DNA from: a virus
Length of the DNA stretch: 63,630 nucleotides
Virus record (IMG/VR): IMGVR_UViG_3300022074_000034
Location: 1-63,630 of that record
Reading direction: 5' to 3' (one strand)
Shown: positions 1 to 20,573 of the stretch, one piece after another
Numbering within the stretch: the stretch's first letter is position 1
Layout of the letters: each line of letters starts with the position of its first letter
Notes under the pieces: model-generated
The model's input: the letters and a program-made list of their open reading frames with translations, nothing else
What the model was told of the DNA's origin: nothing
The model's database searches: none
Translations under genes and position numbers: made by a program

Positions 1-2608
1 CATTTATACTATTTGCTATTTTATTTGCAGAGAATTGTTTACCAAATAGATTAAAGTTTTCTTTCAACTCTCTTTGTCCAAACATTATTGTATCAATAAA
101 TGCATCGACATGCTTATATGTGTAAGACTCCCCCGGTTTCTTTGCTGGTAGTTTAATACCTAGTTTGTTTGCTACACTACTTAAATATGCTACACCTGCA
201 GGATTAACCTTTAATGTATCTCTATTTTTCATTATATCTCTAAACAACATAACCTGACCTACTACTTCAGACTTAGCGGCATAGTTATGTGCCATGTCTC
301 TAAATGCATATATACTACTAGCTACATCTCTAGATACATCTGTTGCAGGTATATTATTTACATAGTATACAGGTACAGACTTTTCTAGTTCCCCGGTTCT
401 TTCATTATATCTACCAAACTGAGTATCTGTATCTTGTACACTAAATGATTCTTTTAGTATGTCTTTAGTAGACGAGATAATACCTTGCTCTCTCATTCTA
501 TCAAACTCATTCTTTCTAACAGATGGCATTATGTATGAAAAGTCTTCCCAAGAATTTTTAGTCATCCTCTTACTACCTACCATCTTCTGTCCTTTCACAA
601 ACTCTTTAACTATAAAGTCGTAGTATCTTTTCTTTTTAGCATCGTTCTGTATAGCTGTGTATTTTGGATTAGTATACTTAGATGTTTTTGGTTTAATGAA
701 TGATCCCCTTGGTTGTCCTGTTACTGGATTTATATTAAAACTTCTTTTTTGTTTTAGTTTTTCTATTTGTGTATTCGCATCAGCTTCAAGGTCTGATCTA
801 CCGGCTTCCTTTGCCGCTATCTTATCTTTCTCAGCTTTTACTATTTGTCTGTTTATTTTAGCTAACTCTTCTTTATATGTAGGTACGGCTTCTGTGTTTT
901 CTTTATGCCAAGCTGCTACCTCATTATAGTATTTTGTTTTATCTGCTGTCTTATTCCATTTTTTAACTGCTTCTTCAAACGAAGCTTTATCTTTATAATC
1001 TGCTCTTTGAGGTTTTTTATATTTTTTATTTAACTTTTTATACATAGCAGTTTCATCCTGTCTAAACTTATCTACTAGTAGTGGATTAACTAGTGATAAA
1101 ACTTCTATTGGATCTATTTGATTACCCTCACTGTCATACTGTGGGACCTGTGTAGTTTCTAATATAGAATCATTTAGTCCTGCTACATCTGATTCGCTTA
1201 AACCTTCACTGAATAGATCATATTCTCTAGCTAAATCATATTTAAAATCAAGAGTCATTTCGTTCTTTTTGAACGTTGCTTCTTTTACAGACTTAGCAAA
1301 CAATTGTATTGCAGGCTCTGATGAGTATATGATTGGATCAAACAGGTATGAGAATCCGCTCTTATCTCTGTGTGCTTGTGTTAAATCTTTTATTAATTTA
1401 TCTCTTCCAGGTATTTGTCTGTTCTTAAAACTTTCTATAACTAAAGCTTTTGCCTCTTTATTAAACTTTTTATTGCTGTATAAAACACCTGGAGAAGATA
1501 TATACTTCTTCAGTAAGTCTTGAAACTCATTTGTTTGTCTTACCTGACTAGAGAAACGACGCCAGTCTCCCGTCTGTTCTATGTTATCTATGATCTCTTG
1601 TATCTGCGGGTCAATTGCCTCATTGTGGAATCCAACAAGAACTTCTGCCATTACAGGTATAATCTCCTGCTCAAACTGTTGATCTAATCTTTTAGATTTA
1701 TCTATAGTTTCTTTTATATCAGAAAGCATAATCCCAAATCTATCTTTAGATGTTATATTTCCTAGAGCTAGTTGATCCAACGCTACTTGTTCTAACTTTT
1801 GTATGGTATCTAAACTATCTAAGGTTTGTTTTATCTCATACATTCTATTCATGTTAGCAGCTGTCGCTCTTTCTTCTACAGATAGTGTCATTAAAGAATT
1901 AAACTCTGCTATTGCATTATTTACATTATCCTTATTAGCTGCTACGAACATAAAGAAGTCTTCTACTTTATTAATGTTTGCTACTGCAATTTTTAATCTT
2001 CGTAATCTATTTTCTCTACGCTCTATTTGATCTTCAGGTAGATTCTGCACATCGCGCAGTTCTGACTCTACAATAACTTTAGCATTAACTGCTAACTCCA
2101 TCAATTCTTTTTGCGCATTTTCTTTTGTAGTATATGTGTTTGCACGGAGCTCTGTTTCTTCTGCTGGTGTTTCTTCTTTTATTACACCTTCTGATTTAGC
2201 TTGAGTCTTTCTAGTAAACTCATCTTTCTCAAAGTTATTTTTAAAGTTAAACTCAGAGTCTTGTGCTTTTACTTCTGATGCATTGTTTAGTATATTAGGG
2301 CTAATGGTTACTTTGTATATGTTTGTAGGCTGTCCAGTTTCAGGTCCATACTTTTGTGTTGTCTCAAATGAAAAGTTTAGAAGACCAGGGTATCTTTGGT
2401 TAACAAGTCTTAGTTCTTTCAGCTGTTCTTGTGTTGCAAACATCTCAGGCTTACCTTGGAACTGCGTTAAGACTTTACTATCTTTTAGTATGTCAACTAT
2501 CTTTTGAGCGTTTCTTGACCCTGTCGCAGAGTTATCAATATAGTCTGCAACTTTAGACATCATTACATGCTCTTTACCATTTACTATTATTATACAATTA
2601 TTCGCCAT
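1..2608 (-). CDS. Giant virion/cargo protein next to vRNAP, C-terminus beyond window
   Basis: The reading frame is open from an ATG at 2608 to the left edge, so at least 869 residues are present and the C-terminus is missing. The start overlaps the stop of the vRNAP gene by one base (TAATG), implying translational coupling. I translated it by eye: it is helical, highly charged and Gln/Lys/Glu-rich, with no signal peptide and no motif I recognise. A segment near the edge reads VPVYYVNNIPATDVSRDVAS. In crAss-like phages the genes flanking the DFDID polymerase encode other very large virion proteins, some regarded as polymerase-associated or ejected with DNA. I assign that role by position only. 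Confidence 0.8.
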   Translation of the reverse strand, partial: MANNCIIIVNGKEHVMMSKVADYIDNSATGSRNAQKIVDILKDSKVLTQFQGKPEMFATQEQLKELRLVNQRYPGLLNFSFETTQKYGPETGQPTNIYKVTISPNILNNASEVKAQDSEFNFKNNFEKDEFTRKTQAKSEGVIKEETPAEETELRANTYTTKENAQKELMELAVNAKVIVESELRDVQNLPEDQIERRENRLRRLKIAVANINKVEDFFMFVAANKDNVNNAIAEFNSLMTLSVEERATAANMNRMYEIKQTLDSLDTIQKLEQVALDQLALGNITSKDRFGIMLSDIKETIDKSKRLDQQFEQEIIPVMAEVLVGFHNEAIDPQIQEIIDNIEQTGDWRRFSSQVRQTNEFQDLLKKYISSPGVLYSNKKFNKEAKALVIESFKNRQIPGRDKLIKDLTQAHRDKSGFSYLFDPIIYSSEPAIQLFAKSVKEATFKKNEMTLDFKYDLAREYDLFSEGLSESDVAGLNDSILETTQVPQYDSEGNQIDPIEVLSLVNPLLVDKFRQDETAMYKKLNKKYKKPQRADYKDKASFEEAVKKWNKTADKTKYYNEVAAWHKENTEAVPTYKEELAKINRQIVKAEKDKIAAKEAGRSDLEADANTQIEKLKQKRSFNINPVTGQPRGSFIKPKTSKYTNPKYTAIQNDAKKKRYYDFIVKEFVKGQKMVGSKRMTKNSWEDFSYIMPSVRKNEFDRMREQGIISSTKDILKESFSVQDTDTQFGRYNERTGELEKSVPVYYVNNIPATDVSRDVASSIYAFRDMAHNYAAKSEVVGQVMLFRDIMKNRDTLKVNPAGVAYLSSVANKLGIKLPAKKPGESYTYKHVDAFIDTIMFGQRELKENFNLFGKQFSANKIANSIN

Positions 2609-5600
2609 TATATTCTACATATTTTTTGTATCTCTACAACATCCTCTTTAGCATCTGCTATTTTCTTTGTAAGCCTCTGCTCTATCACATTTGTAGATGG
2701 CAGGCCTGTTACTGTATTAGGCTCTCTTTTCATAGAACTATTTTCAGATGCGTTACCTACCTCATTTACTTTGCCCGGAACTCCTTTCTGCTGCAGTTTC
2801 ATATACTGCCCTTCTCCTACTCTTACATATATTTCAGACTTACCTTCAGGGCTAGATGTAAAATATGCAACCCATCCCTTATTCTTACCTTTATATGCAT
2901 TAGGCGCTGCTCCCTGAGCTAAAGTTATTACACCGTTGTTGTCAGGCTTTATTAGTTTTGGTCTAACTCTAGGTAGTAAAGATTTACCGCCCGGCCTAGA
3001 CGTTCCAAAGTTACGAATAAAATCGTGAACAAAGTCATTAAAGAACAATGCGTCGTGAGAATTGTTTTGTATTCTAGAGAAGAATTGTACAGGACTTTCT
3101 AGTGCAGGGTTTAACATACTAGTAGTAAATACCTCAGCTGGTATCATATCTATATATGTACCTCTACCCGGTTGGAATCCTTTTGTCATTAACTGATTAG
3201 CTATTAAATCTTTAGCAAATGCTGAAACTTCAAGATCAGAACTATCTAACATCTCTTTAAATCCTTGAGTCATTTTATTTTTCTCTAATGTTCCTGCATC
3301 AAAGCTAGTATCTAGCTGTACTGTAAACACTGGTATACCTTTGTCATTATTAGAGTCTGCTTGTTGCAAGTTTTCAAAGAATAGATTACCTTTTAGTTTA
3401 CCGCCTTCTTGAAGTCTTCTAAGTCTTATACCTATATTGTTTCCAGGATCTGTATACAACCTTTCAAAGTTACTTTTAGACATTAGTGGTGCTAGCGGAC
3501 TGTCCGTATGGGCCATCATCTTTAAGAACAACGTTTTGTCTACTAATTTATTTGTAGCTGCGTCAAAAGATGTTGCACCTATCTGTTGTTTTAATAATCT
3601 TTTAAATACATTGAATGCTAGATTATTATTTATAAAGCCTGCGTCTTGTGCTGCATTCATCACAGTATCAAATATACCACGGTATGCAACTTCCATAGGA
3701 GAAACTTCATTTATACTATTTTGCATTTCAGTAATGAACTCTTCTGCACCTTGTACTAGCTGTATGTCTTCATCACTCAAGTACTCAGCTTCTGTATCAA
3801 GCCAGCCTCGCAATGCTGACATCTCGTTAACGTTACTTAAGTTATCAGGTGTAATTACCTTGAATGCTTTTACTACAGATCTACCAGCTCTATGAAATAG
3901 TGCAAAGTTGTTTAGCATTTTTACTTGATTATCAACTTCCTTACTAGCTAACTCTTCTACAGACATATCAACAACACTGTCACTAGCCTTTCCTTTTATT
4001 ACTCCATACTTTGTAACCAACCCGTCATATTGTTCTCTAACTTCATTGATAGCCATGAACAGCTGGCCTGGATTGTATCCTTTATTTCTTGCTACTTGTA
4101 TAGCTTCTACTATAGCAGGTTGTGTTAGAAAGTCTATTACTTGTTCTACAGGTATACCAGTACTTAGCATCATTCCTGATACAGGTACAGTAAACTCATT
4201 ATCATTTATGTCTATTTGTATAGGCTTCTTAGCGGCGTCTACTGCAGCTGATAGATAGTTAGATATAGTAGAACTGTTAAACTTTTCAGAGTTGTATTCA
4301 TTCTTTTTACCTAGCTCTGCAAATACTACTCCATCTATGATTGGAGCAAAGTCTTCGTTTATTTTAAGACTTCCTTGTTGCGCAATATTGTGTCCTGCAA
4401 GTATGTTAGCCCAAGAACCTCTAAGCCTTATACCCGCTTTGTTACGCATCTCCATATCTATTTCTGCTAGTGGATCATTATAGTCTACCATAATAGTACT
4501 ATCACCACGCTTCTCCATAGCCTTATTAGTTAGCCTATTTCCGTCTAGTGGATCTAAGACTTGACTTAAGTGTTCAGGAGCTGTAAGTGCTTGGAACATT
4601 ATATCAAATATTCTCTGCTCTCTTTGCGATCTTTTATCTTGGCCATCTTCTTTTTGGATGACAATCATTTTATCAATATCAAAGTCACTACCCATCTGTG
4701 TTGTTACACCTCCAGGTACTATAATTCCTTTTGCATGTGACTCAGGTAAGAAGCGTACTACTTTTATTGGTAGCATAGAGTTTTTACCTTGGTTAGGTAT
4801 ACGGTATCCTATAACAGTTAATCTTGGATCGTTGTTTGTTATTAAGTCTTCTATGTTTTCATTTTCTGCTATACCTAAATCACTACGACGCATCATTACT
4901 TCTGCAGGCGATGTACCATCATACATCTTCAACTCACTGCTTTCTATATGACCACCTACTTCTGCTATCTGTACAAGCTCTTTACCTTTTTGCTGTTGTT
5001 TAAATATACCGTTATTAAATAAGCTAAAGTATATCTGTTCAAACTTAGCTTGGAAGTTAGGAAATGCTAGCGGTATAGCAAATCTATAATCAAACTGTCC
5101 GTTTGGTACAATGTTTAGTGCACCTAAATAAGAATCAGGCAATCCTTTTTCACGTATCTGTGATAGTAATCTTTCTTTTAGCTTTTGTAAGTGATCTAAC
5201 TTTGCATCCCTTTTAGCTTCTACACTCTTAGCATTACGTAAAGCGGTAAGACCTAACTCATCTTCTATCTTTTTTGTATCTTCTTTTACATTTTCAGCTA
5301 CTAGGTTTTGGAACTCTAGGTTTAGATTAGGATCTAACAACCAATCACCTATTATGTTTTTACGTATCTGCCTTGAAAATGTAATCTTATCTTTTTTAAC
5401 TACTGGTATTATTTGTGGCAGTCTTAGCTTTGTAGAGTCTAGTACAAATGTATTTAAGTTATCTAGGTTATCTATATATACATCTCTAACATCTTTACGA
5501 GCTCCCTTGTTTGCATTCTCTTCGTGTATTACATGAATCTCTTGCTTTTGCATGACTCTACGTAATTTTTCTAGTACCGGGTACTCTGCAGATAGTTCCT

Positions 5601-8600
5601 TAGTAACAGTTACATAGGAGTTTTTATCCATGTGTAGAACTGGTTTATTATCTCTAACTTTTAACTCTTCGTGATAAGGCTTTATTGGTTTGATAACTAC
5701 AGGAACTCCCGCATTGTCTACATACTTACCTGCATTTGGATTAGTTGGGTCTATGCTAGTTTCATTTAGATATGCTTGTTCATCTCTAGATCCCCACTCT
5801 CCTAATCCTTGTTGTATCCCACGGTACATATCTATAGATATAAATGACTGCGCATCTGTTTTTACTACATCTCTGTATTGTTCAGATATTCTTTCAGCCT
5901 CATCTCTTGATACACCAGCTTCCATCATGTTAGTAAACATTTTATCAGCGACTGTGTTTGCTACAGCTGAATCCTGAAATCCTAGTTCTTTTATAGTAGC
6001 TGTTTTGTATGTACGCATCATACCATATCCCGGATCACTTAATGTCCCTTGTAAGGCTAGCTTTCTACCAGGTGTATTTACTAACCCCATACGTTTGTAG
6101 AAGTCTGCACCATCTTTTGCAAAGGTCATACCGCCACGTAATAGTTTATTTACTTCTATTCTACCAAAGAAATCATTGAAGACAAAGTCTTTTACAAAGT
6201 TTTTATTATTTCTTATAGATATATGTAAATCAGCAGGGTTTATTTCTAGTCTCTCTATCTCACTTTTTACTCTTTCTTCATATCCTTCAAGTTTAGTTTC
6301 AACATCATCAACTAATCTTTCTAGTATTTCATCTACTTTCTGCATCTCAGCTGCTCCAGCATTTTGATCTAAGAAGACATCTGCTCTTTGTATTAGGTCT
6401 ACATTACCATCTACTGTTTGTGAATAGTCTAGTCCTGCAATCTGTGGCATAGTAAACACTGATCCAGTTTCACCGTTAGTAAAAGGATTAGTTCCTTTTG
6501 CAAAGTGATAACCTTCAATAAGTTGACTTATATCTCCGCCCGGTTTTGCAACTAGTGCTTTTGCTATGTCTCTTCTAGCCTGTAGCATAGTTACTATATC
6601 CTGTACTATGATACCTTTTATTGCTTCTCTTTTAGTTAGACTAACTCCTAGTCTGTTGTAGTACTCAAACCTTGGTATAGTAATAAAGTCCATACGTTTA
6701 CGGTCTGCTTGTGTAGGTAGTGTAAGTTTAAAATATGTAGGTGTATTTTTACTTTTTGCTCCATTGTTTGCAAACGCATTTAATCTAACTATTAAAGAAC
6801 CTTTTTCACTTTGTCCTTCGTAGTCTATACCAATTCCATAATCATTTACACCTTTAGAAGAATCTAATATTTGTGTATTTAAAGCTGCTCTTACATCTTC
6901 ATTTTTATCACCGGATAAAACAGTTAGTAAAGGTGATTGATGTTTAATATCAAACCCTGGAGATAATAATGGAGTTTGAACAAAGGTATCAAACATAGGT
7001 TGGAAGTTATTCTTTATCTGAACTACAGTCTCATCTAGTATAGTAGGCTGATTAATTGGGTAGTATACTTTACCCGCACCACTTAAGAATGATTCAGCTG
7101 GATTGTTTACAAAGAATGGAGTAATAGCTGCCCACTCTTTTACTACATCTAACGTTCCGCCTTCCTTATCTGATCCGTATATATATCTATCTTCTTTTAC
7201 TGCATTTACTAATCTACCTAATCCTTTCTTGGGTCTGAATACTTCTTTTCTAAACAGGTCCATACCAGCTGCGCCATCAACATCTCCTTTTACAAAGTAT
7301 TCGTTTAATTTATCTGTAGATTCTTGAAGTGTATTTCCATATTGTATGCCTAAGTTCCATAGCACTGTAGATAAATTTTCTACATCTACAGGCTGTAATT
7401 CTTTTGTAGATAGTTTAAGGTCTTTTATTTTATCATATGCAGATGATATAGCTTTACGTTTACTTTCTACTACTTCTAATGTACCGTCTTCATTAGTTTT
7501 ATATAAGGCTCTTGGATTAGGCATGTCTGATTCTATAGATTGTCTCTTCCAGAAGTTTAAAGCTTTTGCTTTTATACTGCCTTGGTCAGAGTCAAACATT
7601 TTTACATCTATAGCTTCTCCTATCTTTTGTCCGTCTGGTGATGGAATATCTCTTTTGTCTGTTCTAAACTGTAAAAACTTTTTGTAAGAGTTAGCAAAGT
7701 TTGCATAGAACGCCGCCTCTTCTTGAGCGCTTAAGCTTTCTAGTTTTTTTACTACTGGTATAAGTGTTGGATTGTATTTTGCTTTTGTTCTCAGCTGGGC
7801 CATCATGCTAGGGAAGTCTGACTGGTCTACAGTAGCTTCATTTATCTCTGAGTATATTTCATCTAATGGTATAGCTGTATTGTATCCCAATACATTAGGT
7901 TCATCTGCTCGTATATCTGTTAAGAATGCTTTTACACCACTTGATAGTTTATTTTTTGTAGATTCTTGTAATCTAGATATATCGTGTATACGAATAGGTG
8001 TATCATCTTCATCCACTATCTCTACGGTATCATCTTTTACTTTCATACCGTACGCTTCTAGCCCTTCTTGTACAGAACTTCTAAATCCTTTTATTGTAAC
8101 ATTCCCAAGCTTGTCCGTAACATCTTGCCAATTAAGATATACGTTTAGCATGATATAGCCTTTCTCATTAATTGTAATACCACTATCAGCTAATTCAGCA
8201 TCAACCCCAGCAGCATCTTGGATCTCTCTGCTTTTTATTTTCTTAGCTATAGCTATTACTTTGTCCCTATCTTCTTTAATAGGAACTCCTTTACTATTTC
8301 TTCTTAGACCATCAAAACCTTCAGCTAAAGCTCTTTCTGCTAGAAGGCCTTTTACTTTTCCCTTCTTATCTCCAAACCACTTTTTTACATTATTAATATT
8401 TTTAAAGTATGTAGGGTTATTATTACGAAAGTCATTAAAAAAACTAATCACAGTATCAACTAGTACTCTTTCCTTTTCATAGCTTAGGTTACTAGCTGTT
8501 TGTGTTGTAGCAAAAGTTAGAGGCTGTCCTTTAGAATTAGTAAGTATCTTTTCTGTACCATTAGGTCTTATCACATAGTAGTAGCCATTACCAAATCCAA

Positions 8601-8844
8601 GTTTAGGTTCACCATTTTCATCTGTTATAAGTGTTGCAGGATTCTTTGCTTTTGGGTCATTCTCAAAGTCCATGCCGTAGTCATCCTTAAATTCTTTTGT
8701 ATACATGTTTCTGTATACATACTCAGCAACTGCAGGATCTCCGGTAGCATTTAATAATCTGTCAAATAATAAAGAGGACTCTCCGCCTGGGGTTTCTATA
8801 CCTACAACATTATTATCATTATCTCTTTTAAGTTTACAAGCCAT
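2608..8844 (-). CDS. crAss-like virion RNA polymerase (DFDID protein), 2078 aa
   Basis: The key feature is DFDID at residues 1387-1391, in the context GSDFDIDKM after a Gly/Thr stretch. Established knowledge: in Cellulophaga phage phi14:2 a protein of about 2180 residues with the same motif is a single-chain, double-psi beta-barrel RNA polymerase related to eukaryotic RNAi polymerases. It is packaged in the virion, ejected with the DNA, and transcribes early genes; the three Asp residues hold catalytic Mg2+. Length and position (late in a row of giant genes) both fit. No signal peptide is seen. The gene lies 8 bp after the preceding giant gene and is coupled to the next by TAATG. The polymerase assignment is strong; promoter specificity is unknown. 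Confidence 0.88.
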   Translation of the reverse strand: MACKLKRDNDNNVVGIETPGGESSLLFDRLLNATGDPAVAEYVYRNMYTKEFKDDYGMDFENDPKAKNPATLITDENGEPKLGFGNGYYYVIRPNGTEKILTNSKGQPLTFATTQTASNLSYEKERVLVDTVISFFNDFRNNNPTYFKNINNVKKWFGDKKGKVKGLLAERALAEGFDGLRRNSKGVPIKEDRDKVIAIAKKIKSREIQDAAGVDAELADSGITINEKGYIMLNVYLNWQDVTDKLGNVTIKGFRSSVQEGLEAYGMKVKDDTVEIVDEDDTPIRIHDISRLQESTKNKLSSGVKAFLTDIRADEPNVLGYNTAIPLDEIYSEINEATVDQSDFPSMMAQLRTKAKYNPTLIPVVKKLESLSAQEEAAFYANFANSYKKFLQFRTDKRDIPSPDGQKIGEAIDVKMFDSDQGSIKAKALNFWKRQSIESDMPNPRALYKTNEDGTLEVVESKRKAISSAYDKIKDLKLSTKELQPVDVENLSTVLWNLGIQYGNTLQESTDKLNEYFVKGDVDGAAGMDLFRKEVFRPKKGLGRLVNAVKEDRYIYGSDKEGGTLDVVKEWAAITPFFVNNPAESFLSGAGKVYYPINQPTILDETVVQIKNNFQPMFDTFVQTPLLSPGFDIKHQSPLLTVLSGDKNEDVRAALNTQILDSSKGVNDYGIGIDYEGQSEKGSLIVRLNAFANNGAKSKNTPTYFKLTLPTQADRKRMDFITIPRFEYYNRLGVSLTKREAIKGIIVQDIVTMLQARRDIAKALVAKPGGDISQLIEGYHFAKGTNPFTNGETGSVFTMPQIAGLDYSQTVDGNVDLIQRADVFLDQNAGAAEMQKVDEILERLVDDVETKLEGYEERVKSEIERLEINPADLHISIRNNKNFVKDFVFNDFFGRIEVNKLLRGGMTFAKDGADFYKRMGLVNTPGRKLALQGTLSDPGYGMMRTYKTATIKELGFQDSAVANTVADKMFTNMMEAGVSRDEAERISEQYRDVVKTDAQSFISIDMYRGIQQGLGEWGSRDEQAYLNETSIDPTNPNAGKYVDNAGVPVVIKPIKPYHEELKVRDNKPVLHMDKNSYVTVTKELSAEYPVLEKLRRVMQKQEIHVIHEENANKGARKDVRDVYIDNLDNLNTFVLDSTKLRLPQIIPVVKKDKITFSRQIRKNIIGDWLLDPNLNLEFQNLVAENVKEDTKKIEDELGLTALRNAKSVEAKRDAKLDHLQKLKERLLSQIREKGLPDSYLGALNIVPNGQFDYRFAIPLAFPNFQAKFEQIYFSLFNNGIFKQQQKGKELVQIAEVGGHIESSELKMYDGTSPAEVMMRRSDLGIAENENIEDLITNNDPRLTVIGYRIPNQGKNSMLPIKVVRFLPESHAKGIIVPGGVTTQMGSDFDIDKMIVIQKEDGQDKRSQREQRIFDIMFQALTAPEHLSQVLDPLDGNRLTNKAMEKRGDSTIMVDYNDPLAEIDMEMRNKAGIRLRGSWANILAGHNIAQQGSLKINEDFAPIIDGVVFAELGKKNEYNSEKFNSSTISNYLSAAVDAAKKPIQIDINDNEFTVPVSGMMLSTGIPVEQVIDFLTQPAIVEAIQVARNKGYNPGQLFMAINEVREQYDGLVTKYGVIKGKASDSVVDMSVEELASKEVDNQVKMLNNFALFHRAGRSVVKAFKVITPDNLSNVNEMSALRGWLDTEAEYLSDEDIQLVQGAEEFITEMQNSINEVSPMEVAYRGIFDTVMNAAQDAGFINNNLAFNVFKRLLKQQIGATSFDAATNKLVDKTLFLKMMAHTDSPLAPLMSKSNFERLYTDPGNNIGIRLRRLQEGGKLKGNLFFENLQQADSNNDKGIPVFTVQLDTSFDAGTLEKNKMTQGFKEMLDSSDLEVSAFAKDLIANQLMTKGFQPGRGTYIDMIPAEVFTTSMLNPALESPVQFFSRIQNNSHDALFFNDFVHDFIRNFGTSRPGGKSLLPRVRPKLIKPDNNGVITLAQGAAPNAYKGKNKGWVAYFTSSPEGKSEIYVRVGEGQYMKLQQKGVPGKVNEVGNASENSSMKREPNTVTGLPSTNVIEQRLTKKIADAKEDVVEIQKICRI

Positions 8845-8852
8845 ATCTATTT

Positions 8853-11800
8853 TTATTTACAATCCTGATCAAAGTCGTTTCTGTTTAAATCTGCCGCAAA
8901 AGGACTGCCCATTTCGTTTGCGAAGTTTTTAAGGTCAGATAGACTCGGAGCTTTAGAAGAAGCAAAGGTAGTATTTTCTGAGATTTGCTCAACAGTTGTT
9001 CCTTTTAGATTTCCTTTACTAAATGTTATTACTGGGTTGTGGAAGTATCCTACAGAAGTTCTTACTACATCAGTTGTTAGTATAGAGTTGTATCCTAACC
9101 CTTCTGATCTACCTACATTTCCTAACTCTTGCGCAGAGAATAGATAGCCTGTGTAGCTATCATAAGTATTGTTTGGATTTACAGGACTAGTATATGCACC
9201 TTCTCTACTAGCTCTGTCTAAATCTACATTGTATTTTTTTCTATCTAAGAAATCTGCAAAGTCTTTCTTAAAATTATCTTTTATCTTATCGTAGTCCTTA
9301 CTTTCTGCTTTTGTAACTTGGAAGTCTCCATTTTGAACATCAACAAAGCTAAACTTAAATGGTTTATCTTGTAAAGCATTTTGTAATTGAACGTCATTAA
9401 GTCTTATTAAACGCCCTGCTTGTGGACTATTATATACCATATAGTTTTGACCACTACCAAATTGTCCAAACTCTAAGTAATTTGGATCTGAGTATGCAAC
9501 CGCTCTTCTACTTTCATCACTGTTAGCTACAATCTCTCTTGCAAGATCAAAGTTCTTTTGTTTTAATGCTTCACCTACAGCTGCTACTGCATCTCTAGTA
9601 AGATTAGCTGTGCTACCCATAGAAACATTGTCTGTTCCTTCAGGGTTTTGATTAGCTGGTATTAAGAAACCTACCTGTCCTGGCGCTGTTCTGCCTGGTG
9701 TACGCATAGTAAGGTCTGACCCGGATGGTCCAATGAATTCTACTACACCATCTGTTACAACTGTACCTACTAACTGTGGTGCGCCACCAAACGTTTCACG
9801 CGGGTCATAAAAATACTTTTGACCATCTGCAGTTCTTGCATTGTTAAAGTTTGGAGATGTGATACTAGCTACTTGTGTAGTAACTCTTTCTCCTGCCTGA
9901 AGTTTACGAACTATATCCGCTCTGTCTTGTCCTTCACCTCTTTGTAGTTTACCAACTATCTGATCTCCTACTTTAAAGTATACAGGCATATCAGCTACAC
10001 TACCATCAGGGAAGTTTTCTTTGTAATAATCATTCTCTATAATTTGGAACTCTACTTCTACGCCTGGCTGTATCTGTATTAGAGCTTCTCTATCCATCTT
10101 AATTATCTGTCCGTCTACAGTGTCAGGCGCATTTACTGCAGGACTACCTGCGGGACTTACCTCTATTTGCGATCTATTTGTTGCAGGATCTTTTATAGCT
10201 CTATCTGACATTGCAGCTTTTGTTTCTATATTATCTCCTTGCGTAGGTACTGCTGCAGGTGTTTGAGATGTTGTCAGACTAGTTTGTTGTGTTGGTTCAC
10301 CTAAAGAGGCTTTCAATAAAGAAACAATATCCTCATTACCTAAATATACTCCATCATTACCAAACTTAGCTTTGTTAAGCCTTTCCATAGTATCCATGTT
10401 GATATTCATGTTTGGAATACCAACTTGATTATTTCCTAAATCTAATAGTCTAGAAACTACACTTCCATCAGAAGCTGAAACTTTATCTATAACTCCATAC
10501 TGATAGGTAGTTCTTACAGCCTTTCCTTTTTCATAATAAACAATAGACTCGTTTATTTTTTTACCTAAATAATCTTCTATAACTTTTGGATCATCGCTTC
10601 TTAGTATTTTACTGATCTCTTCTCTGTCGTATTCTTTTAAAACATCTTTACTTTCTTCTATAGATTCATTTTCTCTAACTTGTAGTGGTACAGCTGTAGG
10701 TCTTTGTTGTTGTAAACTCTCACCAAATGTGGGCCCTTCTGCTGGAGGCATTGGAGGTGCTTCCATTCCAGGTCCTTCAAGTCCTAACTGTTCTGCTTCT
10801 TTCGCTGATATAAACCCAGTTCTAGGGCCACCTTGCTTACCGCTTGATGTAGGCTTAGCTGCTTCTTGAGATCTTTTGTTATTCTCTACAGATTTTTCTA
10901 TTGCCTTTTCACTCTTGCCTACAGGTTCTACAGTGTCTTCTTTTTTAACTTGCTTATCTCTAATTTGTTGCTGTCTTTCAGCCTTGGTTTCTAACTGTTT
11001 TTCAGATTTTTTAGTAACAACCTCACCCTCTCCAGTAACTATATTTTCAACTATTTGTTCATTAGTTAAAGTGTTGTCTTTTTTATAAGTTTCGGTTAAA
11101 TATCTGTTTTCAGGCTTAGTGTCAGTTCCTTTAAAATAAGAAACTTCTCTTGAGCCATCAGGATTAGTTCTTACCCTAATGCTTACAGATTCACCATCAT
11201 CGTCTTTAGTTTCATAAACCTCTTCTTTCCCTTGTTTTTCAGTGTTTACAACAGTCCCCTCTTCTCTAGCGCTTTCTGTATTATCTCCAACTTCTCTTGG
11301 AGTGTCTTGTTCCTGAGTTTCTCCCTCAGTGCTTTCGGTAGTTTGTCCTCCATACTCTGGAAGTCCAGTTTCGTTTTCATTTGTAATTCCTTTTAGTTTA
11401 TTTTCTTCTAGTGCTATCTGCGCTTCTGCATTTAGTAGGTCCTTACGCTTTTGTTTTAATTTTTGTTGCGCTTGATTACGTGCTGCAGATGCGGCCTTGA
11501 AAGAGTCAAAGTCATCATTGCTCTTATACTCTTGCATAGACTGGTCTAGAGTTTCAATAGCTCTCTCTAGCTCTGTTATTTCATTTTGTACTATAGCTTT
11601 ATACTCTTTAGACTCTTCTATAGCTTCCATAGCTTTACCTTCTATTCTAACACGCTCCATTTCAGATACGCCTATAGCTTGTCCTCTAAGTTTTAATACG
11701 CCTTTACGTGCACGGATCTTTGCTCTAAGAGAGTTTATTTCTCTTTTTCTTTCGCGCATCTCAGGCTCATTATTTATATCCTTTTTAGTAGCTCCTTCAG

Positions 11801-14800
11801 ATATAAAGAAGTACCTAAGATTATCATAGTCTGTTTCTAGTTGGTCTAATATTTTATCTAGTTCGTATATCTCTGAGCGTAAAGAGTCATTTGTTTTTTG
11901 TCCGTGTTTACCACCAAAAGCTAATCTTTTTATTCTTTCTTTTGCAGCCTTTTCTCTAGCTGCAGCTGCCTCTCTATCTAATGTTGGCTGGCCTTCCATC
12001 TTAAGAGCTTCAGACATGTAGATAGCATATGCTAGTGTATCAGCCTGCTGTCTAATAAAACGTCTTCTGTTACCATTTGCATCCTCTAGCTCTACGTACT
12101 TTATCTTCTTAGATCTTTCTGTACGCTTTACAGCATCATTTGGATTGGCCTCTTTATTGTAGTATGTAGTACCATCTATTTGGAATGTTCTACCATCTTC
12201 ACTTATAACTTGTATGCCGCCTAGATTGTCAGGGTCAAATGCTTCTTGTCCTTCTCCTGTAGCATCTTCTTGATCTGCGATCTTGTTCTCTTGTTGCTCA
12301 CCTTCCTTTACATCAAGTCTTCCTTGTTTCTTCAAGTCTAACTGTCTCTCTAACTCACTGATAGCCGAGCTTAGTCCTGCACGTTGTATTGGAGTAAGTT
12401 TAGTTTTATCTATCTTCTTAAGATTCTCAATCTTTTTTTCAATAGTTTCACCCGCAGTTGTTAGATACTTTTGATGCTCTCCTCTTTCTTTTGCTTTAAA
12501 CTCATTTTCTTTTGCTAAAGCTTTTTGTTTTAAGCTTGGAGGTAGATCCGGATCTTCTAGTATTTTCTTTATGTCTTCAGAGGATTCTGCTTTATCAAAG
12601 TTTTCATTAAATGCTTTTGTCTGCTCTCGTAATAGTGTAGCATCTTGTTCTACTTTAAGGTTTCTTTGGAATGTTGCTTGTGCGTATGGGTCAGATGCTA
12701 GTTTATTATATCTATCTAATGCTGTAAATGTGTCTTCAGAAAGAGCAACATAGTCTTGAGCTTGTTTTTTAAATTGTTCAGCTGCAATTGGATCTATTTT
12801 AGACAATTCATTATATGCTTTATCTAAATTTGAAACCATGTCTAAATAGTTTTTTCTAGCATTAAAATCTTTAGCATCAATTTCTCCGGGTTCTGTTTGG
12901 AATATAGAAAAGTCGTTAAGAATTTTATCTATATCTAAGACATCTCTACTTACAGCACTTATACCAGCTAAAGAGTTTGCAATGATCTCTGACATAGTAT
13001 CCTGTATACTTGCCATTCTATTGGTTCTATCTTTAACTTCTGCTCCTTTAAGTATTAATTGGTTTCTTAGATCTGCACGTTCTCTATAAGTTTGATCTTC
13101 TGCTTTACGAGCTTCTTCACTCATCAGTGATCTAGGCAATCCTCTAGTTTTATCAGGTAATGCAAACCTATCGTTTACATTTTTGTATACCTGCTCTAGA
13201 TTATCAATCTTATTATTTATATCAGATAGCATTTCTGATTTACTCTGACCAGTTATTTGCTCTAGTGTTTTTGTTTCTCCTTTCTCATTAACTAGGGATA
13301 TACCCATAGCCTCTGCAAACTCAGTATCACTTAAGTTACCAAAGTCATTCATTTTCTGTCTGTAAACATCATAACCTCCCATCTCTAAAGCTTGGAGTGC
13401 GTTGTATGATATTAGTTTGAACTGCTCATCTTTGTATGTTTTTATATCTCCTCTCTCTTTAGCAGCTTGCATACGTTTAAGAACTTCGCTACTAGCATTA
13501 GCGTATCCTAATCTTTCTGTAGTGCCATCAAAGAACCCGGTATTTATAGCATCAGCAAGTATTTGTGCATTCTTTTTTCTTTTTGAGTGGTCTTTACCTA
13601 CAATAGATTGTCCTCCACCCATGATACCTCCAGTTAGTAAACCAACAAACATTGATTCTAAACCTTCTTGTGTGCCAAATGTTTTAGATAAAGCATCATT
13701 TAGCGCTTTACCCATATCTCCATAGCCGTTATTCTTTAGTTTATCTGTGTGATAGCTGTGTGCAAATTCCCCAGACGCAAACTGAAAACCTTCTTGGAAT
13801 GCTTCTTCTACGCCATTCATTGCAATAGGCTTCATTCTATTCATCACCCCTTGCCACATAGTTTCATTAGCAAACTTAGATGCAGCTTTTCTTGAAGTAG
13901 CGTCTAACACTACATCACCAGTTGCTTTTGTAGCAGCATTAAATCCTGCTACTTGTTTACCAAACATCATTAAGTTAGTACCAGCAAGAACCGGTAGTTG
14001 TAATGCAAAGTTTGTATTTGCTGCAGCATAAGATACATCTTCAAATTGAGCTTTTATATCTGCAGGAATTTGACTCTCATTATCTAATAAGTTCTCTTGC
14101 ATGTATCCATCTAGCAGTGTTTGATATGTATTTTTTTGACTTTCTCTTGCTTCTACAGATGCTTCAGCTAATGACATCATTAAACCTGCCTCAAGGACCT
14201 GAGCAGCACGCACGGTTCTGTTTAATGTACTAGCACTTTTTGCTAGTTTAGTACCTAGCTTTGTACCATTGACTATAGCTTTAGTTGTATTATAAAGAGC
14301 TGTTCCTTTTGCTGCCCCTCCCACACCTTTTGTTAGCAGGCCTATAGGTCCTAGTCCACCTGTTAGGTACATAGTTGCTATAGAACCTAAAGAATATCCT
14401 AATCCATTTGCTACAGTATCAGCCCAGAAGTTTGCAGTTCCTAGCTTTTGGAACGTGCTCATCTTCTGCTCCTCTCTTGTAAGATAGTTAGGCATGTTCT
14501 CACGCATCCACTCATTAGTCTTATCTACGCTTCTACCTATAGCATTATCGTAATAAGCGCCTCCACTAAACAATTCTCCTATTCCAAATATAACTCCTAG
14601 TGTGTTCTCTGCAACAGCTCCTATAGTAGTAACACCTGCTTTAGCTAAACCTCTACCCCACTGCTCAGCTGTAGATTGATTACGAGCTCTTATCTCTTCC
14701 CAATCTAACTCTTGTCCTAGTGGTACATTATAGTCTGTAAACTTAGTTATACTATCCTTTTTACGATTAGCATACATACCAGATGTAATACCAGTACCAA

Positions 14801-14984
14801 TCATCTGTCTTCCTATTTCACCACCACCAAGTGTGACAGTTGGCCTTACAGCCTTTAAAGGCTCGTTAAGGAATGGGTGCATTTTTACAGGCTTGTCATC
14901 TGTAGATGTAGTAGTGTCCTGTGTAGGACCACTACCGTCTAAAGGCTCTCCTAAAAACGGATGTATTTTAACTTCTTCTGCCAT
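8853..14984 (-). CDS. Giant virion cargo/ejection protein with HPFL repeats, 2043 aa
   Basis: I do not recognise a catalytic domain. The N-terminus carries two copies of a short motif, VKIHPFLGEPL (residues 5-15) and VKMHPFLNEPL (about 33-43), separated by a Thr/Asp-rich linker. Residues of roughly 110-350 include several Gly-rich hydrophobic stretches that could insert in membrane. The centre (about 500-1250) is charged and coiled-coil-like, followed by a Thr/Glu/Gln-rich low-complexity region and a more globular C-terminal part. Hydrophobic segments plus long helices in a giant protein beside the vRNAP resemble proteins ejected to form a DNA/protein translocation path. Function is inferred from position and composition. 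Confidence 0.75.
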   Translation of the reverse strand: MAEEVKIHPFLGEPLDGSGPTQDTTTSTDDKPVKMHPFLNEPLKAVRPTVTLGGGEIGRQMIGTGITSGMYANRKKDSITKFTDYNVPLGQELDWEEIRARNQSTAEQWGRGLAKAGVTTIGAVAENTLGVIFGIGELFSGGAYYDNAIGRSVDKTNEWMRENMPNYLTREEQKMSTFQKLGTANFWADTVANGLGYSLGSIATMYLTGGLGPIGLLTKGVGGAAKGTALYNTTKAIVNGTKLGTKLAKSASTLNRTVRAAQVLEAGLMMSLAEASVEARESQKNTYQTLLDGYMQENLLDNESQIPADIKAQFEDVSYAAANTNFALQLPVLAGTNLMMFGKQVAGFNAATKATGDVVLDATSRKAASKFANETMWQGVMNRMKPIAMNGVEEAFQEGFQFASGEFAHSYHTDKLKNNGYGDMGKALNDALSKTFGTQEGLESMFVGLLTGGIMGGGQSIVGKDHSKRKKNAQILADAINTGFFDGTTERLGYANASSEVLKRMQAAKERGDIKTYKDEQFKLISYNALQALEMGGYDVYRQKMNDFGNLSDTEFAEAMGISLVNEKGETKTLEQITGQSKSEMLSDINNKIDNLEQVYKNVNDRFALPDKTRGLPRSLMSEEARKAEDQTYRERADLRNQLILKGAEVKDRTNRMASIQDTMSEIIANSLAGISAVSRDVLDIDKILNDFSIFQTEPGEIDAKDFNARKNYLDMVSNLDKAYNELSKIDPIAAEQFKKQAQDYVALSEDTFTALDRYNKLASDPYAQATFQRNLKVEQDATLLREQTKAFNENFDKAESSEDIKKILEDPDLPPSLKQKALAKENEFKAKERGEHQKYLTTAGETIEKKIENLKKIDKTKLTPIQRAGLSSAISELERQLDLKKQGRLDVKEGEQQENKIADQEDATGEGQEAFDPDNLGGIQVISEDGRTFQIDGTTYYNKEANPNDAVKRTERSKKIKYVELEDANGNRRRFIRQQADTLAYAIYMSEALKMEGQPTLDREAAAAREKAAKERIKRLAFGGKHGQKTNDSLRSEIYELDKILDQLETDYDNLRYFFISEGATKKDINNEPEMRERKREINSLRAKIRARKGVLKLRGQAIGVSEMERVRIEGKAMEAIEESKEYKAIVQNEITELERAIETLDQSMQEYKSNDDFDSFKAASAARNQAQQKLKQKRKDLLNAEAQIALEENKLKGITNENETGLPEYGGQTTESTEGETQEQDTPREVGDNTESAREEGTVVNTEKQGKEEVYETKDDDGESVSIRVRTNPDGSREVSYFKGTDTKPENRYLTETYKKDNTLTNEQIVENIVTGEGEVVTKKSEKQLETKAERQQQIRDKQVKKEDTVEPVGKSEKAIEKSVENNKRSQEAAKPTSSGKQGGPRTGFISAKEAEQLGLEGPGMEAPPMPPAEGPTFGESLQQQRPTAVPLQVRENESIEESKDVLKEYDREEISKILRSDDPKVIEDYLGKKINESIVYYEKGKAVRTTYQYGVIDKVSASDGSVVSRLLDLGNNQVGIPNMNINMDTMERLNKAKFGNDGVYLGNEDIVSLLKASLGEPTQQTSLTTSQTPAAVPTQGDNIETKAAMSDRAIKDPATNRSQIEVSPAGSPAVNAPDTVDGQIIKMDREALIQIQPGVEVEFQIIENDYYKENFPDGSVADMPVYFKVGDQIVGKLQRGEGQDRADIVRKLQAGERVTTQVASITSPNFNNARTADGQKYFYDPRETFGGAPQLVGTVVTDGVVEFIGPSGSDLTMRTPGRTAPGQVGFLIPANQNPEGTDNVSMGSTANLTRDAVAAVGEALKQKNFDLAREIVANSDESRRAVAYSDPNYLEFGQFGSGQNYMVYNSPQAGRLIRLNDVQLQNALQDKPFKFSFVDVQNGDFQVTKAESKDYDKIKDNFKKDFADFLDRKKYNVDLDRASREGAYTSPVNPNNTYDSYTGYLFSAQELGNVGRSEGLGYNSILTTDVVRTSVGYFHNPVITFSKGNLKGTTVEQISENTTFASSKAPSLSDLKNFANEMGSPFAADLNRNDFDQDCK

Positions 14985-14987
14985 ATA

Positions 14988-17345
14988 TTAATTTGTCATT
15001 AGTCTAAATGATTGACCTCTTTCGTTTGATAGTCTAATTATTTGTTCTAACTCAGGGTCGTTAGGAGTCATTGTGTTTATTAAACCTTTGTTAACATCGT
15101 ACAATCCTACACTTACAACATCTCCTCCGTCATTAAAGTTGTATTGTAAATGTCCTGCGTATTGACCATTAGAGTTGTAAAAACCTACATTAGCATCATC
15201 TAGTCCTGCAACAGCTGCTCTACCATATGTCATAGCTATCTTGTACATAGGATCATTAAAGTATTGATCCATACCACTAGCTTCAAAATTAGATGTAGGT
15301 ACTTTAACTATAATGTTTTCTCCCGTTTTTGGATCTACTGCATCTAGTTGCATTGATACTGTAGGTTCTCCTAAATAAGGCTGCTTATCAAAAGTAACTT
15401 GTGTAACTTTTAGCTGAGTGTTTGCAGGAAGATCATAATCTTCTATAAGACTAGCAACACTTCCTGTACCATCTTGTTTCAATCCTCCGTAGAATATTCT
15501 AAAGTTAGGATTAAGAGGTCGTTTTTCAAAAGTAGACTTAACTGCTTTTGTATTAGTTTGAGCCATTGCATCTGTCTCGCCTGGGAAGTTAGTAGAAGTA
15601 GTTCCTGCAACTAGTATCTTACTATTCTTTTCAAGATAAGCATTTACTTTATCTAAACTTGGATTCATATCTGAAGTAAATTTAGCAACAAGGTTTCCAC
15701 CTAACTGATTAATCTGCTGTTGAGCTAATCTTACGTCTCCTATTTTAGCTTCTAGTGCTGCAGAAGTTCCTCTACCTCCTTGAAGTTCTTTACTATAATT
15801 ACCTAAATCAGCAATTCTAGCTGCAACTTGCTCGTCAGTTGCATTAGGCATATTAAGTATATCTTTAGCATTACTAATAAATTCTTGGCCAGTTACATCA
15901 CCATATGTGTTTTTCTTAACATTTTCTACACCCTTAATATATCCAGTTTTTTCATATGCTTCTCTGAGCCTTTCTTCTTGTAAAAATATTTCTGCCCTTG
16001 CATTTTCTATTTTATTTTGGTAAGACTTTAACACTCCTTGCATTTGTTCAGGCACTCTACCATTCATTATATCTTCTGCACTTATTATAGCATCTGGTCC
16101 TATCAACTCATTTTTCCTAGCATACCTAGTAGCCTCGTCAGCTACTACTATCTCAGTTCCTTGATATGTTTCAATATAACCATTAACATCTTCAAGGCTT
16201 ACTCCGCCTGGATTTTGAAGTTCTGTTACTCCTGTGTCAAAAGCCACAGCAGGAACATACTTATCTAAGGCAGACTTAAGTCCTACTAAATATTTCTGAT
16301 CGTAGTCTTGTATGTACTCAGTAAATATATTTTCGTATGCAAACTTAGTAATTGCAGTTTGTTGTTGTTGACCTATTATACCTGAAAGAGTTTCATCTTT
16401 TAGATATTTTTGACGGGCTTGTATTTGTTCCGCCTCAGATTCTAACCCTGCTCCGCTAAGAAGCTTGGTTTCTTTCTGTATCTTTTCATCTATCTGCGCA
16501 GCTAGCTTATCATTACCATCTGCAATTGCTTTATCTCTTAAACCTACTAATCCATTACTATCAGGATCATTTTCATCTCCATATAAACTAGCAGTTAAAC
16601 GTTGTCTAATCTGTTCATCTGTAATATCAAAAGTTGTAAGATCTGTTTGCTGTGCTACTGATGCAGCTACACCCGGTCTAGACATTACTTCATTAAATAC
16701 AGTATTCACTTGATCAGCTGTAACTGTTTTATATGAATTTCCTACTTTAATAGTATACATTGCGTCAGGACCTTGTCCTACTGTTTGCACAATTTGACCT
16801 CCCTCTTTAGCTGCAAAGTCGTCCATAGCTTCAGACATTAGCGCTTGTATATCAACGTCTTTTACAAAGTTATAGCCACTGAAGTAGCTACCATCATCAA
16901 TACTACCGTCTTCACTTCTCTGTAATCCTGAGTATCCAAAGTTAGATTTAGCAATAGCTTTATTATAAGTCAATGCATTTATATCTCCTTTATCATATGC
17001 ATCTTTTACTCTTTTTTGATATGCTTGATACATCTCATAGTTCTGTTTTATAGGCTGATACCCTTTATCGAACTCTCTAGCACTTTTAGACACATCCATC
17101 ATCATAGTTTCATAATCACCACGTGCAGATCTGTCTTGCAGCTGCTGTCTAGTTTCCTGCTCAAGTTGCATCTTAAGAGCCTGATCTCCTTCAAAGTCTG
17201 CGGCTTGCATTTGATCTACTGCACCTGCTATAGCATCATCAGCATTGAATGCTTGTTGAAACTTTTGTCTCTGTAGTGTATTTATTTGTACAGATCCTGG
17301 ATCTTTATAAACACTAACATATGGTCTTAAGTTATATCTACTCAT
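14988..17345 (-). CDS. Large virion protein, probable cargo, 785 aa
   Basis: It starts MSRYNLRPYVSVYKDPGS and its ATG overlaps the stop of the upstream gene by 8 bases (ATGAGTAG). The protein is mostly helical and Gln/Asp/Ala-rich, with predicted coiled-coil character around residues 25-130 and 260-480 and a more beta-rich last third. There are no transmembrane segments, cysteine clusters or nuclease/protease motifs that I can see. It sits between the Ala/Gly-rich 1077-aa protein and the 2043-aa giant, so it is probably one of the set packaged with the RNA polymerase. The family is not identified. Confidence 0.72.
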   Translation of the reverse strand: MSRYNLRPYVSVYKDPGSVQINTLQRQKFQQAFNADDAIAGAVDQMQAADFEGDQALKMQLEQETRQQLQDRSARGDYETMMMDVSKSAREFDKGYQPIKQNYEMYQAYQKRVKDAYDKGDINALTYNKAIAKSNFGYSGLQRSEDGSIDDGSYFSGYNFVKDVDIQALMSEAMDDFAAKEGGQIVQTVGQGPDAMYTIKVGNSYKTVTADQVNTVFNEVMSRPGVAASVAQQTDLTTFDITDEQIRQRLTASLYGDENDPDSNGLVGLRDKAIADGNDKLAAQIDEKIQKETKLLSGAGLESEAEQIQARQKYLKDETLSGIIGQQQQTAITKFAYENIFTEYIQDYDQKYLVGLKSALDKYVPAVAFDTGVTELQNPGGVSLEDVNGYIETYQGTEIVVADEATRYARKNELIGPDAIISAEDIMNGRVPEQMQGVLKSYQNKIENARAEIFLQEERLREAYEKTGYIKGVENVKKNTYGDVTGQEFISNAKDILNMPNATDEQVAARIADLGNYSKELQGGRGTSAALEAKIGDVRLAQQQINQLGGNLVAKFTSDMNPSLDKVNAYLEKNSKILVAGTTSTNFPGETDAMAQTNTKAVKSTFEKRPLNPNFRIFYGGLKQDGTGSVASLIEDYDLPANTQLKVTQVTFDKQPYLGEPTVSMQLDAVDPKTGENIIVKVPTSNFEASGMDQYFNDPMYKIAMTYGRAAVAGLDDANVGFYNSNGQYAGHLQYNFNDGGDVVSVGLYDVNKGLINTMTPNDPELEQIIRLSNERGQSFRLMTN

Positions 17346-20300: not shown

Positions 20301-20571
20301 TAGCTTGATCTGCTTCTTGATATGTTATAGCTGCAGTCTCAGGAGCACCTGGCATAGTGTTAGCGCCATACATTGGAGGTGCAGCTAAACCACCTGCTTG
20401 GTAGTAACCCATACGTCTCATGAATTCTTTTTTACTGCTCTTAGGGTATCCACCATCTTTCATCATCTTAGCTAGTTTACCAATCTTTTTAGATTGACCT
20501 GCATGTAGTTTAGATGCCTTAGCTAGCTGCTTAGATACTTTATTAAGTGTTTTTCTTTTTAAATTTGCCAT
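17338..20571 (-). CDS. Ala/Gly-rich virion cargo protein with GG motifs and Ca-binding repeat, 1077 aa
   Basis: The N-terminus (1-50) is strongly basic, followed by a coiled coil (about 85-120) and an Ala/Gly-rich hydrophobic run (about 210-260) that could be membrane-active. Around residues 530-660 there is a KPIPGSDAIEFKGKSHAQGG-type segment, common in virion proteins of Bacteroidota phages. Short basic GG motifs recur (MMKDGG, YYQAGG, KQMGG, MKKGG, KMGG, KNGG). A DADGDGVPDAIDPD segment near residue 765 is a calcium-binding thrombospondin type 3-like repeat. The C-terminus is helical and Arg/Ala-rich. The start is 2 bp after the muzzle-like gene and follows AGATAATT. A cargo role is inferred from position. 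Confidence 0.75.
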   Translation of the reverse strand: MANLKRKTLNKVSKQLAKASKLHAGQSKKIGKLAKMMKDGGYPKSSKKEFMRRMGYYQAGGLAAPPMYGANTMPGAPETAAITYQEADQARLKALEEQLEEAQESTKFQDEAEAEVQKQASTISGIEQGLSQGVKAADKLGVFDKLKQKGIEKAAAKAKDLAAQKTLETVGSTAGQKGAELVTSTVLPEQGAKLLAQPVSGSFTQGLAAKGAQKAAEVSSGAASGAASAGAGAGAGAAGGIGMGGVGAIASLAGEGLKMASDDQDATTMNVGESIGSGLSGVGTGIGAAMSTAALMGSTLGPVGTAAGVIGGAIYGLGKGLITRGKARKEEAKAEEKKKEEVQRIASKQKLEALKSKEYSGFDFGADLRQSGGFSQKLDTLQDGLTLAGLAGPVGPFADIANTVISAGRGIYSGVTGDTDAAKKHALNTGLNLVSAIPVIGDTISAPKAVKAGANLAQKAIVKGKKVKATANMLQAANIVNPAGNFQPSADMNQTFASETTGVQPPIIPQLMSNVTPNVPTKQYQPLPPGGFASLLNKKQMGGVKLPGGVAKPIPGSDAIEFKGKSHAQGGIMVDPMTEVEGNETMDQVTMKKGGKRDYFFSQHLKMGGKSFAQRHKEILKNGGSQKDVDALAKLQEKKAGRNPNTVKLGAGGYYQGGGIATQSPFVTAPYNSTFDVTSIVPQDNTLIQRGPAPFENQLISEDELNKQLQQRKDIMSGKLVFDAATNSFIPVEKTTNNKSKSATNNTEKNNKKQPANTTKNTTQTGYPDADGDGVPDAIDPDSALFNVPIVTNNEEFRMEGIEDANMTMGPEEFDYNSLSEEDKSVVDKANSGADLTDLEKKALKRLRRDVPGLAIGAGVAQLIAPAYAFFKKDRVAEQMGAPGRIKAPTLDRVSYNTERAANAADSRAMNRFIETSGIGPAGIIAKMSAYRRKQEGDLKIAAQESRVNTQIANQEAQMAQQTNVRNVANAMQADQINTGLREAQLAANENRRLEAIDAFTERTAGLAGDLLSYKATERLARATGDMGIYERDRLRNFLKNQVNPRTGQPYTNADIAELFNKRFGEAQVTKEDKKDE

Positions 20572-20573
20572 AA

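Follow-up and report, generated by a model that had tools for sequence, protein, structure and literature searches.

Cysteines placed only at the gene junctions of a crassvirus RNA polymerase block suggest that its giant cargo proteins are joined end to end by disulfides

The IMG/VR record IMGVR_UViG_3300022074_000034 is a viral sequence of 63,630 bases, classified as linear and possibly incomplete, which is analysed here over its full length and referred to as the window. At one end it carries, on the minus strand, three consecutive giant genes that encode the putative virion RNA polymerase of a crAss-like phage and a large protein on either side of it. The sole cysteines of these three proteins lie at the extreme termini that face the two internal gene junctions; this placement, which is near certain, is the most informative feature of the locus and was overlooked by an earlier sequence-only reading. 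The features concerned are the following, from the upstream to the downstream gene.

8853..14984, minus strand: gp47/gp67-like cargo protein, 2043 residues, single cysteine at residue 2042 (BLASTP and position before the polymerase)
8859..8861, minus strand: junction cysteine at the C-terminus of the 2043-residue protein, codon TGT (cysteine count)
2608..8844, minus strand: predicted virion RNA polymerase, 2078 residues, cysteine only at residues 3 and 2076 (sequence, profile and fold)
8836..8838, minus strand: junction cysteine at the polymerase N-terminus, residue 3, codon TGT (cysteine count)
3475..6927, minus strand: predicted catalytic core, spanning residues 640-1790 and folded like 6VR4 (AlphaFold2 and Foldseek)
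4672..4686, minus strand: catalytic DFDID motif, residues 1387-1391, occurring once in the open reading frame (ORF) (sequence context GSDFDIDKMIVI)
2617..2619, minus strand: junction cysteine at the polymerase C-terminus, residue 2076 of 2078, codon TGT (cysteine count)
2..2608, minus strand: gp49/gp65-like cargo protein, first 869 residues, cut by the window end, single cysteine at residue 5 (BLASTP and position after the polymerase)
2594..2596, minus strand: junction cysteine at the N-terminus of the gp49-like protein, residue 5, codon TGT (cysteine count)

The sequence-only reading had placed the phage in the crAss-like polymerase lineage on the strength of the DFDID motif, and this assignment was borne out. 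The only solid sequence match of the polymerase, obtained with phmmer, is 6VR4 (phi14:2 gp66, E 1e-28), in which the segments GYRIPNQG...GSDFDIDKM are aligned, so that DFDID stands in the same GSDFDIDKM context. A profile of the polymerase family built from 34 sequences, phi14:2 being excluded, retrieved 6VR4 from the PDB at E 3e-250 and no other entry; Pfam and PHROGs gave nothing useful for the polymerase or for the 869-residue protein. Furthermore, an AlphaFold2 model of residues 640-1790 (predicted local distance difference test, pLDDT, 85.7; predicted template modelling score, pTM, 0.84) has 6VR4 as its best Foldseek match (E 2.2e-38, TM score 0.76 by query); next in rank is QDE-1, a polymerase with two barrels in a single chain. 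The predicted model thus has the 6VR4 fold, with two double-psi beta-barrels in one chain around the motif, an architecture judged only at the level of the whole-fold match; its absence would have spoken against the assignment. From sequence and predicted structure, the ORF at 2608-8844 is a crAss-like virion RNA polymerase of known type. Its packaging in the virion and its activity on early genes are predicted by analogy with orthologues detected in virions by mass spectrometry (MS).

The neighbours have the sizes given earlier, 2043 residues and at least 869 residues running off the window. The 2043-residue protein is related by BLASTP to phi4:1 gp38 (E 2e-26), crAss001 gp47 (1e-23) and phi14:2 gp67 (6e-6), shares the conserved N-terminal region and the place before the polymerase with the gp47/gp67 family, and matches a PHROG family of unknown function. 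The 869-residue fragment is related to a 1504-residue IMG/VR protein (locus L004, E 2e-77), phi14:2 gp65 (4e-5) and crAss001 gp49 (6e-4), and belongs by sequence and position to the gp49/gp65 family, an assignment based on these first 869 residues. The gene order gp67, gp66, gp65 of phi14:2 is that of the window. The earlier statement that the roles of the neighbours are unknown was therefore too pessimistic as regards their identity, and its suggestion that they are probably ejected with the polymerase is supported by orthology: crAss001 gp47, gp49 and gp50 were detected in the virion by MS and named RNA polymerase-associated cargo (PMC10172136), and phi14:2 gp65-67 are virion proteins by record annotation. 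The search for further polymerase-like domains that it had called for came out negative. Across the giant proteins of the window, seven in all, the only further D[FYG]DxD was a DFDQD near the end of the 2043-residue protein, and this was rejected as a second polymerase motif, the homologues of that protein conserving only the terminal cysteine there. The predicted fold of the N-terminal 700 residues of the same protein is all-helical (pLDDT 67, pTM 0.45) with no significant PDB match, a gp49-family profile matched nothing in the PDB, and a hydropathy scan of the three proteins found zero transmembrane segments.

The cysteine pattern was first seen on family alignments, as conserved cysteines at the extreme termini. 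In the window the interiors are cysteine-free and all internal termini carry the residue; the window ends before the C-terminus of the third protein is reached. The same arrangement is found in phi14:2, with cysteines only at the internal junctions (gp67 at 1797 of 1797; gp66 at 3 and at 2179 of 2180; gp65 at 3); this phage shares gene order, DFDID, fold and virion location with the window block, although its proteins are only about 20-25% identical to those of the window. PhicrAss001, whose virion contains the orthologous RNA polymerase (RNAP) block cargo gp45, gp46, gp47, gp49 and gp50 (PMC10172136), shows the same pattern with one extra interior cysteine in gp50, and differs from the window in that its gp47 gene is inverted and its gp47 has a zincin motif, absent from the window protein. 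In p-crAssphage (Carjivirus communis) the same block is present, gp45 ending and gp44 starting with a cysteine; unlike the window polymerase, gp44 is a polymerase-gp49 fusion with six interior cysteines and without the C-terminal one, an absence that a chain joined at its breaks predicts for a fused protein. The annotated gp47 of this phage (locus L089, 30141-32714, 857 residues) is probably the cargo protein C1 and has a single cysteine at 856, a possible further link.

The pattern was then counted in 80 IMG/VR loci collected by two polymerase peptide motifs alone and not by cysteine. The gp47, polymerase and gp49 domains were assigned by hidden Markov models (HMMs), the junctions before (junction 1) and after (junction 2) the polymerase were each called split or fused, and any cysteine within the last or first 12 residues was taken as terminal, the outcome being stable for 10 to 15 residues. 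At split junction 1, a cysteine is present at 37/37 polymerase N-termini and at the C-terminus of 34/36 upstream partners; at split junction 2, all 60 polymerase C-termini and all 60 gp49 N-termini carry it. Both exceptions can be explained: in L073 an unrelated ORF intervenes, and the 114-residue ORF before it ends in KKC, while in L080, which is crAss001, gp47 is inverted, yet itself ends in RCNS. The outer ends behave differently. Cysteine is found at none of 26 N-termini and none of 16 C-termini of fused ORFs, and at the outer ends of split chains in 1/29 (N) and 1/56 (C), namely in L074, with an apparently wrong TTG start, and in L069, where the ORF taken is an extra 169-residue chain member. 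Counted as distinct termini, with the partner termini of L073 and L080 omitted, 168/168 internal ends have a cysteine versus 2/115 outer ends (Fisher 3e-78, a value that ignores the relatedness of the loci). An adjacent-gene-pair control, with cysteine on both sides in 19/206 pairs, included gp47 genes that the HMM had failed to recognise and is not used as a chance rate.

Moreover, the interiors are strongly depleted: 56 cysteines in 362,989 residues of the chain proteins (0.015%) versus 960 in 66,169 residues of non-overlapping ORFs on the opposite strand (1.45%), a content about 94-fold lower. Immediately upstream of gp47, the encoded protein is without cysteine in 30/30 loci (21,667 residues). 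At the junctions, the cysteine varies in position from 3 to 11 from the N-terminus and from 0 to 8 from the C-terminal end, and both TGT and TGC are used, from which selection acting on the protein follows.

Where the genes are fused, the junction cysteines are lost. No cysteine at all occurs in seven proteins of 4,627-5,639 residues in which the whole block is fused (L021, L040, L043, L044, L045, L048 and L084); gp47-polymerase fusions keep only the polymerase C-terminal cysteine and its partner, and polymerase-gp49 fusions (L047, L059, L071, p-crAss gp44 and cr3_1) retain only the N-terminal one. The regions that replace the junction are cysteine-free in 23/26 cases at junction 1 and in 15/15 at junction 2. 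A tree built from 81 polymerase cores requires 12 or more changes of state at junction 1, 10 of them forced by well-supported branches, and 7 or more at junction 2. In independent split/fused pairs, the comparison that takes relatedness into account, the cysteines go in the same direction in about 8:0 (p 0.008) and 6:0 (p 0.03). Conversely, additional members bring additional cysteines: an ORF of 169-172 residues between polymerase and gp49 in L065, L067, L069, L074 and L077 has one at position 4 and one at the third position from the end, and phi4:1 is a four-member version of the pattern, its gp37 (517 residues) having cysteines at 4 and 516. Unrelated ORFs that intrude into junctions (L041, L056, L075, L073 and phi4:1 gp36) do not follow the rule.

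The cysteines also follow the break when it moves. A zincin motif, HExxH, stands near polymerase residue 100 in L014-L017, L027, L029, L034, L047 and L052 (further in for L014 and L015, at 298 and 647), and near the gp47 C-terminus in crAss001, Dulem virus 41 and p-crAss. Since the zincin is found on either side of junction 1, the break is not at one homologous place, and the cysteine marks the break itself. Gene order is likewise immaterial, the inverted gp47 genes of crAss001 and cr85_1 still having the terminal cysteine. Some crassviruses have the zincin in gp49, others in gp47 or at the N-terminus of the polymerase (among the loci L004, 6283-10797), and the chain proteins of the window are without it.

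Among named crassviruses, cr118_1, cr3_1, cr271_1, ctcc615, cr52_1 and cr85_1 fit the rule, and cr108_1, whose polymerase ORF is broken in the record, fits at junction 2. crAss002 (L094) fits if its polymerase is taken to begin with the MSC at residues 33-35 of the annotation, the stretch MSCTPSNPK from residue 33 being in keeping with the family. The annotated start of this polymerase (L094, 10028) is probably 32 codons too early. A cyanophage, the Leptolyngbya phage Lbo-JY46 (L100), also fits. At 9143-22049 of this genome the gp49 homologue lies inside a 2748-residue ORF that starts with MSNC, and the preceding 1552-residue ORF ends in a cysteine; no DxDxD motif was found at the polymerase position, leaving an apparent chain without a recognisable polymerase.

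One cysteine on each side of a break, dispensable once a peptide bond replaces the break, is what a disulfide link needs. It is quite probable, from these sequence patterns, that cargo proteins made separately are linked by disulfides, the C-terminus of one to the N-terminus of the next. In this phage and in the majority of crassviruses whose genes are separate, the C-terminal cysteine of the gp47-like protein would bond to the N-terminal cysteine of the polymerase, and the C-terminal cysteine of the polymerase to the N-terminal cysteine of the gp49-like protein, the avoidance of cysteine elsewhere leaving only the junction bonds possible. Linked in this way, the proteins would form one N-to-C string some 5,000-6,000 residues long, the counterpart of the polyprotein that other crassviruses make by gene fusion. 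That such a string is packaged as a unit, is threaded through portal and tail N-terminus first and partly unfolded, and is taken apart by reduction once in the host cytoplasm, with release of the polymerase to transcribe early genes, is favoured somewhat beyond even chances; the string would then be a redox-cleavable polyprotein drawn from separate genes and, over evolution, interchangeable with the fusion. Two aspects of the crAss001 virion are compatible with this scheme: inter-subunit disulfides are found in its tail barrel, fibre hubs and portal vertex, which means that virion conditions permit such bonds, and ejection of the cargo in a partly unfolded form has been proposed (PMC10172136).

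The closest competitor accepts the head-to-tail disulfides and gives them a role in assembly, to ensure a 1:1:1 ratio and joint entry into the procapsid, with no part in threading. We consider it clearly less probable, though a serious alternative, for it accounts equally for the pattern and for its equivalence to gene fusion, and about six copies of each RNAP-block protein have been proposed to fit in crAss001 (PMC10172136); the C-to-N polarity of all chains, which suits threading, and the avoidance of cysteine in other ejected proteins speak against it, neither decisively. Should each terminal cysteine instead serve a homodimer or a capsid or portal partner, as its single and exposed nature and the disulfide dimers of gp57 in the virion (PMC10172136) would allow, neither the cysteines at both sides of every break and their lack at outer ends, nor the short extra members with two cysteines, nor the cysteine-less fused forms would be accounted for, and we regard this as improbable. 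Hardly better are the prospects of a metal site or another ligation chemistry between neighbours, such as a zinc hook or a thioester ligation: neighbours would be linked here too, and the link lost on fusion, but one cysteine per terminus offers just two ligands per junction, with no conserved histidine or second cysteine, and the N-terminal cysteine lies at position 3-8 and not at 1 or 2, which makes native chemical ligation unlikely. An ordinary divergent RNAP block with nothing beyond known cargo would agree with the polymerase, gp47 and gp49 orthologues all being known; it is very unlikely in view of a cysteine pattern that is far beyond chance and undescribed in the open literature found. 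The least credible proposal, to which we give almost no weight, is that the codons are a DNA or RNA signal for ribosome binding or coupling, with cysteine incidental. Adjacent genes are indeed close or overlap by one base, but TGT and TGC are both used, the position varies (3 to 11, and 0 to 8 from the end), and the cysteine persists with gp47 inverted and with intruding genes. Cyclisation of the polymerase alone was rejected, the first and last members having one cysteine each, as was lipidation, no lipobox being present; remnants of inteins or ligation were set aside as no splice motifs looked likely, without a systematic search.

Several points weigh against the disulfide-joined string. So far none of these proteins has been seen bonded to another by a disulfide; the crAss001 study reports none in the cargo, whose density was not resolved in the map (PMC10172136). 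Bacteroides is anaerobic, which makes it harder to say where and when the bonds would form. The loci are related by descent, and noise enters through contig ends and start codons. An eighth fully fused protein (L082) has two interior cysteines, the L083 polymerase has 11, and in gut Intestiviridae the avoidance is looser (15 in the cr271_1 polymerase fusion, 17 in ctcc615), the termini fitting in all of these. Finally, in three unrelated podoviruses the ejected virion proteins that have to traverse the envelope, gp50, gp51 and gp52 of N4, gp15 and gp16 of T7, and gp7, gp16 and gp20 of P22, have zero cysteines; unlike those of crassviruses they lack terminal cysteines and no disulfide chain is possible, which by analogy indicates that ejection as such needs no linkage. 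The N4 virion RNA polymerase belongs to another polymerase family. Avoidance of cysteine may, on the same comparison, be general among ejected proteins, the junction cysteines of crassviruses being deliberate exceptions. T7 gp14, with a single cysteine at position 2, is an exception among the ejected proteins of these phages (loci L088 for N4, L090 for T7, L091 for P22).

The linked tryptic peptides expected for crAss001 were computed: CNS--CITTNSTIEELAAK (M 1812.823, 2+ 907.419) and ICGANTLYEL--CAIIPQVR (M 1992.017, 2+ 997.016). For phi14:2 the corresponding pairs would be GEDSNTIC--MACK and QECK--MSCK, the initiator Met being retained. Joined crAss001 gp47, gp50 and gp49 would amount to about 694 kDa, from components of 262, 277 and 155 kDa. 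Thioredoxin-family genes are present in p-crAss, ctcc615 and cr108_1, and a tie between them and the chain is speculation. No paper on disulfides of the cargo or the polymerase was found in the open literature, the phi14:2 structure paper not being covered; this suggests that the junction cysteine pattern and the chain device are new, the polymerase itself being of a known kind.

Phages have to move megadaltons of protein, in order and in ratio, through a channel less than 50 Angstrom wide, and a disulfide-joined string, if true, would be a concrete answer for viruses that are very abundant in the gut. It would also explain why one gene in some crassviruses corresponds to three in others, and why ejected proteins avoid cysteine. 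The pattern moreover provides a rule for correcting gene starts and for recognising chain members, as in crAss002.

The remainder of the window is filled by a crassvirus structural module comprising terminase, portal, major capsid protein (MCP), muzzle and tail ring protein. PHROG matches were obtained for the terminase (E 9e-131), portal (4e-123), MCP (2e-84) and muzzle (2e-49), and a crass-type terminase large subunit (TerL), portal, MCP, muzzle and RNAP block stand in the conserved order of the Crassvirales. The identity of TerL to that of named crassviruses does not exceed about 42%, which marks the phage as a divergent crassvirus; no near DNA match of the window to named phages was found. 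The genes next to the block are the following.

14988..17345, minus strand: 785-residue protein in the position of cargo C2 (crAss001 gp46), no cysteine (assigned by position only)
17338..20571, minus strand: 1077-residue protein in the position of cargo C1 (crAss001 gp45), no cysteine (assigned by position only)
20574..25472, minus strand: muzzle protein, crAss001 gp44-like, 10 cysteines (context, outside the chain)

The other listed ORFs of the window have a cysteine content of 1.56%. Some unassigned ORFs of the structural module are the opposite of the cargo in being very rich in this residue, with 35 cysteines (5.3%) at 33566-35548, 56 (3.9%) at 39554-43924 and 12 (7.2%) at 43927-44427.

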